From a virus: DNA of 46,411 nt. The position numbers and the translations under genes were made by a program. Below are positions 20,660-43,113 of the stretch, piece after piece (position 1 is the first letter of the stretch; every line of letters starts with the position of its first letter). The DNA lies in the IMG/VR virus record IMGVR_UViG_3300050029_000048, positions 1-46,411 of that record, one strand, 5' to 3'. The notes beneath the pieces were generated by a model, which had not been told where the DNA came from, searched no databases, and saw only the letters and a program-made list of their open reading frames with translations.

Positions 20660-21796
20660 TTGACCAGATACATGTACGACAGCACGAACATCTTTGACAT
20701 CCCGGCTGACGCACAGATGGTGGCCTACTACGTTGATGGCTCATGGCCCGTGAATCGCGCCGTAGTCCAAGCGCGCTTCCCGAATGCGGTCCTTGTCTCA
20801 ATCACCGTGGGGAACACCGAGAACGCCGACGTCATCGACCGCGAAACTGGCGATGCCTCGGCTGCCTATGCCGCGGGATGGGTCAGGCGTCGTAACGCGC
20901 TTGGTATCCGACCGACCGTCTACTGTAACCGCAGCTCACGCGCCGAAGTTGTGGCGCTCTGCGCGGGCCTGAGCTACGACCTCTGGATCGCTACTCTCGA
21001 CGGCGTGGAAACCATGCAGCCCGGGGCTGTCGCCACGCAGACTCAAGGCCAAGGCACGAATGGCGGCTTCCACTGGGACCGCAGCCTCGTCGTTGATAGC
21101 TGGCATCCCGGTGGCGTCGCACCACCGCCTCCCCCGCCGCCCGCGGGAGCAAAAGACACGGTTGCTGCCGACCACTGGTGGGGTGCATACGTAGCTGGCG
21201 CCGACCAGGTGGTCGAGCTGAACAGCATGTGCCACGCTCCTGTCTACCAAGCAGTAGGCCAGTGGTACAGAAACACCACCCCCATCGGAACTCCCGCAGT
21301 CGGACAATACGCCGAGTGGGCGCTGGCCAATCGCGTCAATGGCGTCTGGTACGTCATGGACGAGTCTGGTGGCCCGCCCGGGTCTGGTGGTCCTAACGGA
21401 CGGCTGGCCCCAGCACAGGCGTACTGGATCACCGACAGCTCCACTGACTCCACCGCCTGTGGCGGCACCAATCCTCCAGCGGTAGCACAATCGGGCAAGG
21501 GTACATGGTACAACCTCGTGGCTGCGCCTCCCCCGCCGCCCCCGCCGCCTCCCCCGCCGCCGCCTCCCCCGCCGCCCCCGCCGCCCCCGCCGCCTCCCCC
21601 GCCGCCTCCCCCGCCGCCGCCGCCCCCGCCGCCCCCGCCGCCTCCCCCGCCGCCTCCCCCGCCGCCTCCCCCGCCGCCGCCTCCCCCGCCGCCCCCGCCT
21701 CCCCCGCCGCCTGATGGGCCTCCAGTGCCCGACCCCACGACCCTCAACTGGATTCAGAGCTTCATCGCTTGGCTACGGGCCTTCCTGCACATCTGA
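20660..21796 (+). CDS. Glycoside-hydrolase-like lysin with 62-proline linker
   Basis: A 378-residue protein; TTG 20660 is favoured by TTAGGAGAA upstream (ATG 20672 is an alternative). Residues 1-150 resemble the TIM-barrel of Rv2525c/DUF1906-like glycoside hydrolases: YMYDSTNI, VAYYVDGSW, ALGIRPTVYCNRSS, DLWIATLDGV and the terminal HWDRSLVVDSWHPGG. A Pro-rich linker precedes a second domain (about 170-285), followed by 62 straight prolines and a hydrophobic C-terminus (NWIQSFIAWLRAFLHI). The next gene is a holin, so endolysin is the best call. Catalytic residues could not be fixed. Confidence 0.65.
   Translation: MTRYMYDSTNIFDIPADAQMVAYYVDGSWPVNRAVVQARFPNAVLVSITVGNTENADVIDRETGDASAAYAAGWVRRRNALGIRPTVYCNRSSRAEVVALCAGLSYDLWIATLDGVETMQPGAVATQTQGQGTNGGFHWDRSLVVDSWHPGGVAPPPPPPPAGAKDTVAADHWWGAYVAGADQVVELNSMCHAPVYQAVGQWYRNTTPIGTPAVGQYAEWALANRVNGVWYVMDESGGPPGSGGPNGRLAPAQAYWITDSSTDSTACGGTNPPAVAQSGKGTWYNLVAAPPPPPPPPPPPPPPPPPPPPPPPPPPPPPPPPPPPPPPPPPPPPPPPPPPPPPPPPPPPPPPDGPPVPDPTTLNWIQSFIAWLRAFLHI
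21527..21712 (+). repeat. Coding poly-proline tract (62 CCN codons)
   Basis: Bases 21527-21712 are an unbroken run of 62 proline codons, all CCT, CCC or CCG with no CCA, arranged as imperfect repeats of CCTCCCCCGCCG. It lies between the second domain and hydrophobic C-terminus of the lysin. Repeat slippage may change its length between isolates. Confidence 0.95.
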
Positions 21797-33523: not shown

Positions 33524-34299
33524 GAAGCATGAGCAGCAAACACCTATCCTTCGGGCTGGTCAACGTGCCAGTGCGACTCTACAGTGCCACCAGCGCCAAA
33601 GAGATCGCGTTCAATCAGATTACCCCGGCAGGCAATCGTGTCCAGCAGAAGCTCGTTGACGCCGTAACGGGAAAGCCCGTAGAGCGTACCGATCTTCGCA
33701 GGGGCTTCGAATACGAGCGCGGAGAGTTCGTGGTCGTGGACAAGGCCGCGCTCGAAGCTTGTAACCCCGAGGTCGAGGGTATCGAGATTAGCGAGTTCGT
33801 CGCAGCCGACGAGATCGACCCGATGCTGTATGACAAGACATACCTTATTGGCCCCGACAAGGGCGGTGAGAAGGCATACGCGCTACTTGCCCTGACCTTA
33901 GCTAAGGCTGGCAGGGTAGGGATCGCAAAGGTGGTTTTGTCCAGTCGCGAACACTTGGTCGCGATCAGGCCACGCGGCGACTTCTCGCTGACTATGACGA
34001 CTCTGTTCTATGCCGACGAGGTCGCGGATATAGGCGAACTGAACTTGGCGACGAGTGTGCCCGAGAAGGCGCTACTCGCCGAGGCGATGAAGTTGGTCGC
34101 CGGTCGAACCGTGAAGTTTAACCCGGGTTCCTACAGTGATAGCTACCGCGCCGCTGTGACGGCGCTGCTCGACCGCGAGGTCGCTAAGGCTATCAAGGGT
34201 CGCAAGGCGGCTAAGGTGCCGGTACAGGACATCATGGCGTCACTGAAGGCCAGCGTAGAAGCCGGTAAGCCCTCGAAGGGCAAGGCGGTGGCGGCATGA
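33520..34299 (+). CDS. ku: Bacterial-type Ku protein (NHEJ end binding)
   Basis: A 259-residue protein of normal bacterial Ku length; ATG 33520 overlaps the upstream stop, and ATG 33529 is an alternative. HLSFGLVNVPVRLYSAT, RGFEYERGEFVVVDKAALE, IEISEFVAADEIDPMLYDKTYL, the GIAKVVLSSREHLVAIRP core and MKLVAGRTVKFNPGSYSDSY are hallmark Ku segments. Ku rings bind double-strand ends and recruit LigD. Mycobacteriophages Omega and Corndog encode Ku to circularise their genomes with host LigD. No phage ligase was seen here, so host ligase is inferred. Confidence 0.95.
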   Translation: MRSMSSKHLSFGLVNVPVRLYSATSAKEIAFNQITPAGNRVQQKLVDAVTGKPVERTDLRRGFEYERGEFVVVDKAALEACNPEVEGIEISEFVAADEIDPMLYDKTYLIGPDKGGEKAYALLALTLAKAGRVGIAKVVLSSREHLVAIRPRGDFSLTMTTLFYADEVADIGELNLATSVPEKALLAEAMKLVAGRTVKFNPGSYSDSYRAAVTALLDREVAKAIKGRKAAKVPVQDIMASLKASVEAGKPSKGKAVAA

Positions 34300-34589
34300 C
34301 GCGCAAGGACTTCGTGCTGATCGCTGATACGATTCGGCACATGCCGATATATCATGGCGATTATCTGCAACGCCAGTTGATCGCGCAGCGGTTCGCTGAG
34401 GGGGCGAACATACGTTCGCACGAACATCCGTTCGGCGAACATTTGTTTTTTGACAGTGAAACACCCGAACATTTGTTCGCCCCCGAACATCCGTTCGCAG
34501 GCGAACATCCGTTCGTAAGGCTGACCAGGAGGAATCGAACATCCGTTCGCTCCTGGGGCGGATTGTACTTACACAATGGAGTTCTCTAA
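34296..34589 (+). CDS. Chimeric small protein; 3' half is a palindrome array
   Basis: ATG overlaps the Ku stop. The first ~35 residues (MTRKDFVLIADTIRHMP ... LIAQRF) match the start of a common short phage protein. The usual C-terminus is replaced by EHPF/EHLF repeats encoded by LexA-box-like palindromes (34405-34549). Either the protein tolerates this tail or the array has disabled the gene. Codes 97 residues to 34589. Confidence 0.5.
   Translation: MTRKDFVLIADTIRHMPIYHGDYLQRQLIAQRFAEGANIRSHEHPFGEHLFFDSETPEHLFAPEHPFAGEHPFVRLTRRNRTSVRSWGGLYLHNGVL
34405..34549 (+). promoter_or_regulatory. Array of seven LexA-box-like palindromes
   Basis: CGAACATCCGTTCG or close variants begin at 34405, 34421, 34436 (degenerate right arm), 34466, 34484, 34502 and 34536. 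They fit CGAAC-N4-GTTCG, the SOS/LexA box of Gram-positive bacteria. Spacing is irregular (2-30 bases between boxes). The last lies inside an additional inverted repeat (CCAGGAG 34525, CTCCTGG 34550). A similar box is at 40421. Confidence 0.7.
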
Positions 34590-34689
34590 TCTCGCTCTAA
34601 TGTGCCCTTGTATTCGCTGCTACCGTATGCCATACGCGGGTGCATCCTTTCGTCGGAATGAAACGGCGAGGCACCCGGGAGGATACAGA

Positions 34690-34887
34690 ATGGACCAGCT
34701 TACGCAGACAATTCGAGTTAATGCGTTGTACGACTACGACGGCGCATTTATTTCCGAAAGCGCGACGCCGGTTTGTAATTGCGGTATTTGCGATAACGTC
34801 AAAGCAAATAACCTGGCGCTTGCAAATTGGCGGATGCGTTTGATTAACGGCGCAACACTCGCAGCGATTCACGGCGAGGATAAGTAA
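34690..34887 (+). CDS. 65-residue cysteine-containing protein, first gene of foreign-looking cassette
   Basis: ATG 34690 is chosen for the GGGAGGA site upstream; the frame is open from ATG 34576, which is less likely. MDQLTQTIRVNALYDYDGAF then CNCGICDNVKANNLAL, a three-cysteine cluster. Codon use turns more A+T-rich here (AAT, GCG, TTA). TAATG-coupled to the next gene. Confidence 0.5.
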   Translation: MDQLTQTIRVNALYDYDGAFISESATPVCNCGICDNVKANNLALANWRMRLINGATLAAIHGEDK

Positions 34888-35066
34888 TGAACAGTATTTG
34901 GACACGCGACACGCGACAATTTCCAGAGTTGCAAGTAACGGCAGACATTTCAGAATACCTGTTCGAGAATGCCTGGGTCGCAGCGAAGCGTAACGGCCAA
35001 TGGACGCCCAACCCTAATGCGGACATATCGCTTGACGATATCCGCACCTATGCGAGGATTAAGTAA
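34887..35066 (+). CDS. 59-residue hypothetical protein
   Basis: ATG shares a base with the previous TAA and its own TAA shares a base with the next ATG. Sequence MNSIWTRDTRQFPELQVTAD, ISEYLFENAWVAAKRNGQW. No family recognised; coupling places it in the metallopeptidase cassette. Confidence 0.55.
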   Translation: MNSIWTRDTRQFPELQVTADISEYLFENAWVAAKRNGQWTPNPNADISLDDIRTYARIK

Positions 35067-36511
35067 TGCTAACCAGTTATGTATGGCAGCCCGAACTAAC
35101 CTATTGGCAAAACTTCGCAGCGAAGCAAGCGCAGCGCGCGCTACTTAATCGTTCACCTCAGCTAGCATTTGCGTTAGCGTTTCGCGCAATTGATGTCGCA
35201 ACGGATTACGACAGTGAGAAGTTGCGCCGTATGTTCTCCCTGCGAACACATTACAACTCCGCGAAGTTTTACAAAGTTGCGGGCATGGTTGGCGACACCG
35301 TGTTTACTTGTGAATCCTGCGCGCGCCCGACCTGGGACCGTTTCTCAACCGAGCACATCAGCGGTCGCCGTTATTGCGAAGAATGTTTTAACGAGCGGTT
35401 CACATACTGCGAGCATTGCGAGGGTTGCGAATGGGTCGAGAATATGGTGACAATAGACGATGCGTCAATTTGTGGCCGGTGTCGCGAGCTTGGTGATTTT
35501 TATTACTGTGATTCCTGTGATAAATGGTTCAATGGTCGCAACACGGAAAAGGTCGAAATTGACGGTGGATATCAAACAGTATGTTATTCGTGCGCGGGGA
35601 GTTATTACTACTACTGCGAAACTTGCGACGAATGGCACAGGCGTGGCCATAATCACGGGTGCGATTGCGAAGCAAGTAACCAAGAATTCTCGTTGAACAT
35701 CGCAGCCGACGGCGTATTACGAAACGATTCACGTTTAGTAATTACCGTTGGCGGTGGCAGCATGGATGATCAAGGTTTGCTTAAGTTGCAAACTGCGATA
35801 TGTAATGCGGGCGGCCCGTGGCAAGTGTTGAGCGATGAATTCGACATGACGTGGCAAACCAAATTGGGCAACCTGCCCAAACGCATATCTAAGGCGATGT
35901 ATGCACATTCTGGATTCAAGGCGACGCCGGAGTTGCTTGCCACTATTGGTAACCTTGCGGCGCTGCACGTTTGCAAGTCGGCAGAACATTACGTCGAATT
36001 GTCCCGCGACCTGTCGCCACAAGATAATTGGTACCACCCGACCGGGTCGAGTTGTTGGTGGTCTGATTTCTCGGCGAGTATGTGTCTGTTCAAAGCTTGT
36101 GGCGGGTTCGGTATTCGCTTCTTTGACAATGGACAGACCGATGATTCCAATGGGCGCGCTTGGGTTATGCCCTTGCGTAAGGTAACGCGCGACGTTGAAA
36201 CTTACAACGCAGACCTCGGACTCTATGTCATGGTGCCGACGTCAACATTGCAGCCAACAGACGACGTCAACGCAGAAGCCTATGTAGTGTTTAACACTTA
36301 CCTGTCGCGAAATGGCGATGGGTCCGATAGGAATAAGCGATACCCTGCGCGGATAATGGCGCAGCTTGTCGGCATGACATATCGGCATGTCGGCATGATT
36401 GTGAACAACGAGCAAATGTACCTTAATGGCGATAGCTTCTTAATCGCTGATATCGAAACACTCGCAGCAACGTCAAACTTGAACATCACGATAGATGTGG
36501 AGGTCTGCTAA
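35066..36511 (+). CDS. Multi-zinc-ribbon protein with conserved C-terminal domain
   Basis: A 481-residue protein. A helical N-terminus (~1-75) is followed by five or six CxxC/CxC knuckles between about residues 79 and 203 (CESC, CEEC, CEHC, CGRC, CDSC, CYSC, CETC), a train of small zinc ribbons. The C-terminal ~270 residues are unrecognised but show a distinctive SSCWWSDFSASMCLFKACGG segment. Such architecture suggests RNA, DNA or protein binding. Composition is more A+T-rich than the structural genes. Function unknown. Confidence 0.7.
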   Translation: MLTSYVWQPELTYWQNFAAKQAQRALLNRSPQLAFALAFRAIDVATDYDSEKLRRMFSLRTHYNSAKFYKVAGMVGDTVFTCESCARPTWDRFSTEHISGRRYCEECFNERFTYCEHCEGCEWVENMVTIDDASICGRCRELGDFYYCDSCDKWFNGRNTEKVEIDGGYQTVCYSCAGSYYYYCETCDEWHRRGHNHGCDCEASNQEFSLNIAADGVLRNDSRLVITVGGGSMDDQGLLKLQTAICNAGGPWQVLSDEFDMTWQTKLGNLPKRISKAMYAHSGFKATPELLATIGNLAALHVCKSAEHYVELSRDLSPQDNWYHPTGSSCWWSDFSASMCLFKACGGFGIRFFDNGQTDDSNGRAWVMPLRKVTRDVETYNADLGLYVMVPTSTLQPTDDVNAEAYVVFNTYLSRNGDGSDRNKRYPARIMAQLVGMTYRHVGMIVNNEQMYLNGDSFLIADIETLAATSNLNITIDVEVC

Positions 36512-36513
36512 CT

Positions 36514-37392
36514 ATGCGAAACAAAGCACGAAAGATACGCGCGGCGTTCGATGCCAATACGCTTAAGGCTATCTGCGCCGAGGATAACTTTGATGCATAC
36601 GGTCAGCGGTATATCTGCGAAGGGAAAGATCGTTATTTCCACTATGCAGATAACGGTAGCGATATCCTGGCCGTCGCTCACCTAGATAGCGTCGCAGACA
36701 ATATCCCAGCGCAAGTAATCGACACGGCGGCGGGCCCCATTGTATTATCGCCAGCGTTGGACGATAGACTAGGCGCTTACGTAATTCTCGACCTATTGCC
36801 AAAGCTAGGTGTTAACTGCGACGTGCTGTTAACAACCGGCGAGGAATCGTGCAATAGCACTGCGCGCGACTTCGCAACGGCGGAGCTTACAGACAAGCAA
36901 TACAATTGGACATTTAGTTTCGACCGCACGGGAACCGATGTTGTTATGTACGACTACGGAACCCAACACCTTAAGCAATTGCTGCGCGAGGTCGGCGCTG
37001 ATGTTGGGATAGGAAGCTATTCCGATATTGCCGACCTAGATACGCTCGGTTGCGCCGGTTTCAATTGGGGCGTAGGGTATCGCGACTATCACGGGCCGCG
37101 AGCGCACGCTTGGTTAAACGACACCTTTATGATGGTGTCCCAATTCTTGGAATTCCATCAACACCATAGCGCGGAGTTGTTCGAGTATGAACACATAATC
37201 CCAACGCGCGGATATTGGCGCAAATGGTCACAAGACATGGACGACGCTTGGGACAATAGCAGCGATACTCCATCAACGTTAATCCTTCCTGAAGATTGTC
37301 CGAATTGTCGCAGCGAACTAACTTATGGTTATTGCGAGGATTGCGGATCCGACTGGTGGAACGACCGCCATTTGCAAGCGTGGAATAAATGA
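36514..37392 (+). CDS. M20/M28/M42-like zinc metallopeptidase with C-terminal zinc ribbon
   Basis: A 292-residue protein, two bases after the previous stop. Metal ligands of co-catalytic zinc peptidases appear in order: H56 and D58 in AVAHLDSV, D83/D84 in LDDRLGAYV, E110/E111 in TTGEES, D137 in FSFDRTGTD and H193 in DYHGPRAHAW. The SDIADLDTLGCAGFNWGVGY stretch also fits. A zinc ribbon (C262, C265, C274, C277) closes the chain. Substrate unknown; a free-standing exopeptidase or amidohydrolase is unusual in a phage. Confidence 0.75.
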   Translation: MRNKARKIRAAFDANTLKAICAEDNFDAYGQRYICEGKDRYFHYADNGSDILAVAHLDSVADNIPAQVIDTAAGPIVLSPALDDRLGAYVILDLLPKLGVNCDVLLTTGEESCNSTARDFATAELTDKQYNWTFSFDRTGTDVVMYDYGTQHLKQLLREVGADVGIGSYSDIADLDTLGCAGFNWGVGYRDYHGPRAHAWLNDTFMMVSQFLEFHQHHSAELFEYEHIIPTRGYWRKWSQDMDDAWDNSSDTPSTLILPEDCPNCRSELTYGYCEDCGSDWWNDRHLQAWNK

Positions 37393-40420: not shown

Positions 40421-40441
40421 CGAACATCCGTACGCTATAAT
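40421..40441 (+). promoter_or_regulatory. LexA-box-like operator beside a TATAAT promoter
   Basis: CGAACATCCGTACG (40421-40434) differs by one base from the boxes in the 34405 array. One base further is consensus TATAAT (40436-40441), and six bases after that the GTG start at 40448. A repressor on the box would cover the promoter. Confidence 0.6.
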
Positions 40442-40447
40442 CTATGG

Positions 40448-41017
40448 GTGAAGCTTCCATCGCTTGAACCGGCGCTACGCCGATATTCTACGGCAGTATG
40501 GAACACACACCCCCGCGCACACAGAGCGCACATAGACCCCAGCGCACCGCGAGAGCCCCGCGGTGACATTACCACCTTCAGTGCCGACATTCGTATCGCC
40601 GCACGTATTGTGGACGTCTGTCTTGGCGCCAACGTGGGAATACTAGAAAAGACGCTTGGGGAGGGGTTGACGGCCCGGTACGACCCACTGGAACGACTGG
40701 CACGGTATTTCCCCGTACAGGAGTGGGAGCGCGAGCTGGGGCGCGATCAGGTACGCGAGGCGATCTTTCTGGCCGTGGATGAGGCAGCGGGCCTGACGGA
40801 GATCGAGGCGCGGGTAATGCGCCTGCGAATGGATGGCGTGACAGAGAGCGTGGTGGCCAACGTCATCGAACGAACCCTGCGCCATACCGAGCGGCTGGTT
40901 GCCAGCGTCAAAGAGAAGTTGGTCGACCTCGGCATAGATGTCGTATGGGAGGCGGCGAAGCCGAAATTGGTCATCGCAGACTTAGACAACACATACGACG
41001 AGTGGGATAATGGGTAA
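40448..41017 (+). CDS. HTH protein (sigma-70 region-4-like C-terminus), leaderless
   Basis: GTG 40448 is set by the six-base distance from the -10; upstream codons overlap the previous gene. 189 residues: Pro/Arg-rich start, helical middle (ADIRIAARIVDVCLGANVGIL), then LTEIEARVMRLRMDGVTESVVANVI, a sigma-4/LuxR-like helix-turn-helix. It may regulate late genes or contribute to terminase start. Possibly controlled by the host LexA through the 40421 box. Confidence 0.6.
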   Translation: MKLPSLEPALRRYSTAVWNTHPRAHRAHIDPSAPREPRGDITTFSADIRIAARIVDVCLGANVGILEKTLGEGLTARYDPLERLARYFPVQEWERELGRDQVREAIFLAVDEAAGLTEIEARVMRLRMDGVTESVVANVIERTLRHTERLVASVKEKLVDLGIDVVWEAAKPKLVIADLDNTYDEWDNG

Positions 41018-41210: not shown

Positions 41211-41357
41211 GTGAGCCCACCCGCCGATAAGTCGAACGCCTTAATGGCCCTGCCCGGTGAATGGTGTTTGAAGTGGCTCCCCTCCTTTATTAGCCGCCCG
41301 GTGAGATACCGAGGCACGGAGGAAGACCCCCTTGGCGCGTATTTCGCCCGCAACTAA
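41211..41357 (+). CDS. 48-residue protein overlapping terminase small subunit
   Basis: GTG six bases after TATAAG. VSPPADKSNALMALPGEWCL ... IPRPVRY-type basic end; overlaps the terminase gene by 26 bases in another frame. Reality uncertain. Confidence 0.35.
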   Translation: MSPPADKSNALMALPGEWCLKWLPSFISRPVRYRGTEEDPLGAYFARN

Positions 41358-41862
41358 AGCCGCTATGACGGCCCGACTCAGGGAAGACCCGCCCCCGAGC
41401 CGCTACGCCGTGGCCAAAGAGTTCGGGGTTTCGCAGCCAACCGTTGTCAATCTAGCTCGTGAGGCCGGTCTGCCAGTAGGCGTCCAAACGCCAGTCTTGC
41501 GCGAAGCCGTCGAGGCCGGGGTTCTCGCCGCTCGCGGCAAGCGCGCCGCCCTCGCAGAGCAAGCTCTGGACGAAGCGAAGTATTTTCTTGACGAATTGCG
41601 AGCACCGGAAACCATATATCACTTCGACGCAAAGATGGGCGCGTGGAACGAGAAGGTCATTCCGTCTCCGCTCCAGAGTAGTCGTCAATCCAAGATGATT
41701 TCGTTCGGCATTGCCGTGGACAAGGCGATGGCGATAGCCGCCTATGACTCCGAGGGGCCGACCGCCTCCAAGATCGCGATTATTTCCCTCGTAGACCAGC
41801 TCCGCGATGAAGCCGGAAATAGGGTAGAACCTATCGCCGTAACCCCGGCGAAACAGGTATAG
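41332..41862 (+). CDS. terS: Terminase small subunit
   Basis: A 176-residue protein; TTG 41332 is chosen for GGAGGAAGA upstream. N-terminal helix-turn-helix (SRYAVAKEFGVSQPTVVNLAREAGL) would bind the packaging site; a long helix follows (AALAEQALDEAKYFLDEL). It lies directly upstream of the large subunit. DNA recognition role is from family and synteny. Confidence 0.75.
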   Translation: MARISPATKAAMTARLREDPPPSRYAVAKEFGVSQPTVVNLAREAGLPVGVQTPVLREAVEAGVLAARGKRAALAEQALDEAKYFLDELRAPETIYHFDAKMGAWNEKVIPSPLQSSRQSKMISFGIAVDKAMAIAAYDSEGPTASKIAIISLVDQLRDEAGNRVEPIAVTPAKQV

Positions 41863-41865
41863 CCC

Positions 41866-43113
41866 GTGCAGCTAGCCAAGCCGACTGGATTACAAGCTAG
41901 GTCGATCACAGAGGCTAATCATCGTTTATGCATTTGGACGGGTGCTGTTAGAAGTGGAAAAACCGTCGCCAGCGTCATCAAATGGCTGGAGTTCATTGCC
42001 CGAGGCCCCGAGGGCGAGCTTCTTATGGCCGGGAAGACCGAACGCACGCTCAAGCGTAACATCCTCGACCTTATCGGGGAAATGGTCGGCGACGATCACG
42101 TCAAGGTCCGTCAAGGCGCTGGAGAGGCCACAATCTTCGGTCGTCGTGTATACCTCGCGGGAGCAAATGACGAACGATCTGAGACAAAGATTCGCGGGCT
42201 TACCATAGCAGGAGCTTATGGCGACGAGCTGACAACGTGGTCGCCGAACTTCTTCGGCATGATGCTGACCCGTATGTCGGTCAAGGGCGCTCAGTTCTTC
42301 GGCACCACTAACCCCGAAGGGCCGCGACACTGGCTTAAGCTCAACTATCTCGATCTTCCCGGCCTCGACATGGGCCACTGGCCCTTCCAGTTAGACGACA
42401 ACCCCAATCTCGACCCTGACGTTGTCGCGGCGATCAAGCAGGAAAATGTCGGCGTCTACTACAAGCGCTACGTTCTGGGCGAATGGGTCCAGGCTGAGGG
42501 CGCGATTTATGACAACTGGAATCCAAGTGTACACGTTGTACACAACATGCCGCGCATTATGCGCTGGATGGCCACTGGCGTTGACTACGGGCGCGTCAAC
42601 CCCTTCGTGGCGCTGCTTTTGGGGCTCGGCGAGGACGGGCGCGTGTACGTGACGTCCGAATTGCGCTGGGACAGTAAGAAGCAGCGTATGCAGAAGGACG
42701 ACCAGCAGTATTCGCGCGATTTTCAGCAATGGTTGGCGACATATCCCGGCTATGCAGACGGTGTTCAGCCCGAATGGTCCCTCGTGGACCCCACCGCTCG
42801 CTCATTCCTCGTCCAGCTCTACAAGGATGGCGTTATGGGTGTGCATGACGCCGATAATGAGGTTGGCGACGGTATTCGCACTGTTGCGCGGGCCCTCGGC
42901 CAAGATCGGCTTCGCATCCATGCTTCATGCATCGGCCTGATCGAAGAGTTCCCGGCTTACGCTTGGGACGAAAAGGCCGCAGAACGCGGTATCGACCAGC
43001 CCTTGAAACAAAATGACCATTCTCTCGATGCTTTGCGCTATGGCCTGATGGGTACGCGGCATATTTGGGAACAAACCACACTTCGGGACGCAGAGCCCGT
43101 GGAGGAACTGTAA
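41866..43113 (+). CDS. terL: Terminase large subunit
   Basis: A 415-residue protein with GTG start. Walker A GAVRSGKT (26-33), Walker B-like GAYGDE (D120/E121) and a GTTNPEG coupling-type motif form the ATPase. The C-terminal nuclease has TGVDYG (D240), SLVDPTA and KQNDHSLDALRYGLM. It cuts and pumps DNA into the prohead through the portal. The phage T4/SPP1-like terminase family in general; headful or cos type cannot be told from the sequence. Confidence 0.93.
   Translation: MQLAKPTGLQARSITEANHRLCIWTGAVRSGKTVASVIKWLEFIARGPEGELLMAGKTERTLKRNILDLIGEMVGDDHVKVRQGAGEATIFGRRVYLAGANDERSETKIRGLTIAGAYGDELTTWSPNFFGMMLTRMSVKGAQFFGTTNPEGPRHWLKLNYLDLPGLDMGHWPFQLDDNPNLDPDVVAAIKQENVGVYYKRYVLGEWVQAEGAIYDNWNPSVHVVHNMPRIMRWMATGVDYGRVNPFVALLLGLGEDGRVYVTSELRWDSKKQRMQKDDQQYSRDFQQWLATYPGYADGVQPEWSLVDPTARSFLVQLYKDGVMGVHDADNEVGDGIRTVARALGQDRLRIHASCIGLIEEFPAYAWDEKAAERGIDQPLKQNDHSLDALRYGLMGTRHIWEQTTLRDAEPVEEL

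Follow-up and report, generated by a model that had tools for sequence, protein, structure and literature searches.

The 46,411-base virus record IMGVR_UViG_3300050029_000048 of IMG/VR, taken here over its whole length and referred to as the window, carries directly behind a Ku gene a cluster of seven palindromic boxes that are very probably LexA operators in sequence, and on balance this array would place the adjacent phage operon under the control of the host SOS response. Known LexA control of phage genes consists of single cases with one or two boxes; here a single motif scan brings up dozens of virus contigs, cultured Gordonia phages included, in which three to seven operators of LexA type are clustered. 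The recurrence of such clusters in dozens of unrelated phages, often just before the packaging genes, suggests that many phages may wire their own genes to the host SOS response.

Architecture of the box array

The array spans 145 bp on the + strand; six of its seven boxes fit CGAAC-N4-GTTCG perfectly, and the remaining one has decayed. The exact dyad CGAACATNNGTTCG is found at box 1 (34405-34418, CGAACATACGTTCG), box 2 (34421-34434), box 4 (34466-34479, CGAACATTTGTTCG), box 5 (34484-34497), box 6 (34502-34515) and box 7 (34536-34549), with boxes 2, 5, 6 and 7 all reading CGAACATCCGTTCG, and no other exact copy exists in the window. Box 3 (34436-34449, CGAACATTTGTTTT) retains its left arm and bears two mismatches in the right one. 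When up to two mismatches are allowed, the window contains 20 matches against 4.6 ± 2.15 expected, a count that none of 100 dinucleotide shuffles reaches, so that the cluster announced in the preliminary description, seven palindromes in 145 bases after Ku, is borne out. All boxes share one orientation, the centre ATCC occurs four times, every box has a purine after CGAAC, and there is no preference for an outer T..A pair. The gaps between boxes are irregular (1-31 bp) rather than near-constant spacers, and a CRISPR array was rejected on this ground. The pair CGAACATTTGTTCG followed by CGAACATCCGTTCG (34466-34497) recurs in the same order in phage contig IMGVR_UViG_3300027205_000002 (L021, 4502-4530), so pieces of box arrays may be exchanged between phages.

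The reading frame through the array and the neighbouring genes

All called genes of the window, predicted with a simple codon-usage model, lie on the + strand. The Ku-like DNA end-binding protein gene (33529-34299; Pfam Ku, 7e-40; PHROG 4873, 2e-43) is immediately upstream of the array, and its stop codon overlaps the ATG of an open reading frame (34296-34589) that spans the boxes and reads them as EHPF/EHLF. The first 36 codons of this frame (34296-34403) carry a coding signal of +0.21 log-likelihood per codon, which ends at the array, where the score drops to -0.08, lower than in 99% of windows of equal length from called genes. The array is therefore non-coding and comes after a short remnant that looks coding; gene prediction leaves the interval from the end of Ku (34299) to the next called gene (34690) empty. 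Five boxes share one frame, yet an EHPF peptide repeat is rejected by the codon statistics; across virus arrays, box spacing has no clear bias modulo three (76, 73 and 53). Hence the EHPF translation noted earlier is real as a reading of the frame but not as a protein, and the placement of the array inside a gene does not hold. Nor did the proposed replacement of the 3' half of a common phage gene find support: the first 41 residues of the remnant, a short query of little power, match nothing at E<=10 in 50,697 phage records, and the whole frame has no PHROG match.

Downstream, the next start codon lies 141 bp past the array end and opens a run of genes encoding 65, 59, 481 and 292 aa (34690-37392, + strand), the last of which (36514-37392) is peptidase-like (PHROG 4191 peptidase, 8e-10). 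These genes form the proposed LexA-controlled unit; no convincing promoter is recognisable overlapping the window array. About 7 kb downstream of the array are the large terminase gene (TerL, 41866-43113, +) and, before it, a probable small terminase gene (41332-41862, +), assigned from its position and belonging to PHROG 5536, of unknown function.

The nearest relatives of TerL are found in Streptomyces and Micromonospora phages (~48%) and those of Ku in Mycobacterium phages (~36%), and the host is therefore probably actinobacterial. Queries with Ku, the 481-aa gene product and TerL returned no close relative of the phage from IMG/VR, and a DNA search with the array region returned none among cultured phages. 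Both contig ends (45888-46409 and 1-858) encode similar hydrophobic repeats (TLTKQ.GKLL), probably of a single gene, and the contig is therefore probably a circularly permuted, nearly complete genome. A 374-aa protein encoded elsewhere in the window contains an extended polyproline tract that stems from a long tandem repeat of the CGCCGCCCC type (21525-21712).

Operator rules of a class of virus arrays

A scan of 2.9 million IMG/VR virus contigs for triplets of the CGAAC-N4-GTTCG box, separated by gaps no longer than 30, yields 83 stretches, against one for the reversed-arm control CGTTC-N4-GAACG, which has the same composition, and none for N6 spacing; the N4 spacing is thus strict. Collapsing duplicates leaves 62 distinct arrays, 53 of which follow the rule CGAAC-R and mostly show a purine at the first and a pyrimidine at the fourth centre position. 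Within these 53 arrays, half-site position 6 is occupied by A 269 times, G 113 times, C five times and T once. Pairing across the dyad (49%) is rarer than the 57% expected from independent halves, which argues that the constraint acts on each half-site, as it would with a protein dimer, and not on a hairpin. In 14 whole virus records, most have their boxes in one cluster, and the reversed pattern is unmatched.

Conservation, in which the earlier account had placed the refutation of its proposal, is accordingly seen at the level of the class, which is kept in dozens of phages and in cultured Gordonia phages, and not in close relatives of the window phage, none of which was found. Two deposited phages with related terminases (the CN1A terminase end and MW202803) are devoid of such an array, so arrays come and go among related phages. 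Two further patterns were noted in the scan. Four low-GC virus contigs (L010, L013, L016 and L039) have CGAACATAYGTTCG-type boxes scattered along the entire piece at about one per kb, in a stoperator-like manner. A recurrent 391-aa reading frame (L078, L092, L098, L107 and L128) contains six in-frame boxes at multiples of 21 bp, so in this case the boxes may belong to a repeat in the protein and not be operators.

Similarity to chromosomal LexA operators

The same triple-box pattern, scanned once across a collection of genomes from 84,980 species, returns chromosomal matches of two kinds. One kind has mostly identical centres that do not read RNNY (Labilithrix, Chloroflexi GL140 and Saprospiraceae; L086, L088, L101 and L108) and was set aside as ordinary tandem repeats. 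The RNNY arrays belong mostly to Actinobacteria (Acidimicrobiia and Nitriliruptoria) and Elusimicrobia. All 11 actinobacterial arrays tested for a lexA-sized neighbour stand directly before a gene whose LexA_DNA_bind and Peptidase_S24 domains identify it as lexA, and these chromosomal lexA promoters carry three to four boxes. The lexA boxes of Acidimicrobiia and Nitriliruptoria have the same half-sites as the window and likewise show no outer T..A preference. Additionally, the LexA motif measured in S. venezuelae is tCGAAC-N4-GNNCGa, and the recA (TCGAACATCCATTC) and dnaE2-2 (TCGAACGTCCGTAC) sites are among the tighter LexA sites by SPR (PMC9380542); the window boxes differ from these two sites by one or two bases. 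The half-site rules, the arrays at lexA promoters and the near-identical bound sites of S. venezuelae together form the basis on which the window boxes are very probably identified as LexA operators in sequence, and the original match to the Gram-positive SOS box, here the actinobacterial one, is upheld by the same half-site and spacing rules.

Elusimicrobia genomes also contain LexA-type arrays inside protein-coding genes (L163, 2582-4879; L170, 6013-7896; L209, 1961-3694; L148, 3078-4313), and in two of these genomes a HypF-like gene bears an in-frame RTSVRPEQVFGSEQVF insert at an identical position. Such intragenic arrays look like a spreading palindromic element and show that boxes of this kind can also occur where regulation makes little sense.

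Placement of arrays in phage genomes

Distinct virus arrays lie outside called genes in 37 of 53 cases, against about 20% of random positions (p ~1e-14), and among the 29 intergenic arrays with genes on both sides, 11 occupy divergent gaps where 5.4 are expected (p = 0.012). Wherever a good large-terminase match was present on the same piece, the array lies upstream of the gene, at a distance of 0.6-2.6 kb (13/13 loci, in 8/8 groups unrelated in DNA; sign test on the eight groups, 0.004). In cultured Gordonia phages of the Emilbogenvirinae (Marietta, IDyn, NadineRae, Emianna and others), three boxes are kept in the divergent gp77-gp78 gap, with the arms TCGAAC/GTTCGA constant while centres and flanks vary. 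The more distant Gordonia phages Kabluna and Turuncu have only one full GAAC-N4-GTTC dyad left. A further exact box of Marietta (MH669007.1, 48584-48597) falls within the region where gp67 starts and shortly precedes a RecA-like recombinase gene.

A second motif, TGCCGAGGC, occurs about 90 bp past the arrays in six contigs (L018, L023, L060, L069, L096 and L102), before the terminase genes, and is often followed by TATATGTATAT or a similar sequence; it is possibly a cos site or a promoter. The window has a similar sequence, GGCGAGGCACCCGGG, near 34664-34680.

An eighth box ahead of the terminase genes

An eighth box (CGAACATCCGTACG, 40421-40434, +), with one mismatch and the ATCC centre of the array boxes, lies between genes, and the terminase genes (41332-43113) begin 0.9-1.4 kb downstream of it. 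One base past the box is a TATAAT (40436-40441, +), a putative promoter element, and six bases separate it from a GTG in frame at 40448, a possible leaderless start. Arranged in this way, box, TATAAT and GTG would make up a leaderless promoter with its repressor site, located before the terminase genes. A matrix built from chromosomal lexA-promoter boxes ranks the six exact array boxes and the eighth box as the seven best matches in the window, all of them intergenic. The eighth box scores 14.9, inside the shuffle range (maximum 17.8), so its weight rests on its context.

Proposed SOS control and alternative explanations

As regulatory DNA, the array would operate as follows. In an undamaged host, LexA dimers on the boxes would hold the adjacent phage unit, the genes from 34690 onward, in the off state, and the box at 40421 would likewise silence the gene ahead of the terminases. 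The region would be released when RecA* triggers LexA self-cleavage or, alternatively, when replicating phage DNA supplies so many boxes that LexA is diluted, and the SOS state of the host would thereby time part of the phage programme. LexA binding to the window DNA, repression, release and the identity of the responding genes are predictions drawn from the motif and its setting. More tentatively, actinobacterial phages may have evolved LexA arrays, typically at the entry to the terminase or late operon, repeatedly and independently; host LexA, whose level would depend on damage and on how much of it the replicating phage DNA titrates, would then serve as a widespread, shared timer of late genes. 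If the operators work, the link from SOS to phage timing would be general in actinobacteria and testable at once in cultured Gordonia phages.

The alternative that survives best, although unlikely, is that the host LexA sites act mainly as a sponge, titrating LexA during phage replication and so raising host SOS, recombination and repair functions while leaving the neighbouring genes uncontrolled; phages would then manipulate the SOS response through DNA alone. Each genome has three to seven strong boxes gathered in a single cluster, above the apparent need of one promoter, but chromosomal lexA autoregulation itself uses three to four, so box number is no argument. The lack of enrichment of -10-like hexamers beside virus arrays gives mild support to titration, yet the same test is blank at true chromosomal lexA promoters and is therefore blind. 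Placement in divergent gaps and before terminases is unnecessary for titration.

Rather improbable is a phage-encoded regulator, LexA-like or another repressor or activator, that binds the sites through the same motif. A phage-borne LexA homologue, gp6 of GIL01, does act beside LexA boxes (PMC6182141), and annotated helix-turn-helix proteins adjoin the array in the Gordonia relatives, but none of the window proteins scanned was recognisable as LexA-like or as a repressor, and one conserved host protein explains the common motif of unrelated phages more simply than many phage proteins would.

It is also quite improbable that the array is a selfish palindrome or an RNA or single-stranded DNA hairpin repeat, spread by slippage or mobility, with any function exerted as folded hairpins. 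The common orientation and the fourfold ATCC centre of the window boxes also fit simple duplication, the RNA folding is strong (z -5.6), though this is expected of any palindrome array, and the Elusimicrobia arrays inside genes, such as the in-frame insert of the HypF-like gene, point the same way. Against folding stand the rule for half-sites, in which positions 6/9 and 7/8 do not pair more often than expected, the strict N4 spacing, and the Gordonia arms that are kept while their centres change. Least probable are terminase-binding, cosB- or pac-like packaging repeats near a genome end, as might be read from the pre-terminase position in eight unrelated groups and from the TGCCGAGGC motif that follows several arrays and could be a cos site. 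The box motif is constant though the products of the genes directly preceding the large terminase gene have no significant similarity between groups, the Gordonia arrays sit between divergent operons at ~9 kb from the end of the record, and the same arrays stand at chromosomal lexA.

Comparison with known systems

In mycobacteriophage L5 the stoperators, which are asymmetric 13-mers, are spread across the genome, and the repressor that binds them is that of the phage itself. The window resembles this system in having repeated, here putative, repressor sites on an actinobacteriophage genome, but its sites are dyads gathered in one cluster plus one outlying box, which does not make them stoperators. 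Sites of the cosB/pac type are bound by the phage's own small terminase, so their motif should differ between unrelated terminases, whereas the array motif is the same across groups with dissimilar proteins before TerL, and the array is not classed with them.

With the actinobacterial, or Gram-positive, SOS box the window shares the dyad arms, the N4 spacing and the purine at position 6. It differs in carrying seven boxes within 145 bp on a phage, where known chromosomal promoters have one to a few, and, relative to the S. venezuelae box, in not keeping the outer T..A pair. Prophage genes of S. venezuelae (vnz_21525 and its neighbours) are LexA-associated and strongly induced by mitomycin C (PMC9380542); they likewise place actinobacterial LexA sites at phage genes, but with single degenerate boxes and no arrays.

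A search of the literature, covering open-access papers, found no description of LexA decoys or LexA arrays in phages. The statement of the preliminary description that no phage system of this kind had been described is nevertheless too strong, since in the Bacillus tectivirus GIL01 host LexA on tandem boxes controls phage promoters, the late one included (PMC6182141). The lytic switch of GIL01 uses two boxes at P3 and requires both gp7, a co-repressor, and gp6, a LexA-like activator (PMC6182141). GIL01 is a phage of another type with a host of another phylum, and neither gp7 nor gp6 is recognised in the window, where the proteins scanned included no LexA-like one. The feature that the two would share is control of phage promoters by host LexA on tandem boxes. 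The window array lies 7 kb upstream of the terminases, and a single box precedes the large terminase gene by 1.4 kb; in eight other phage groups arrays stand ahead of the terminase.
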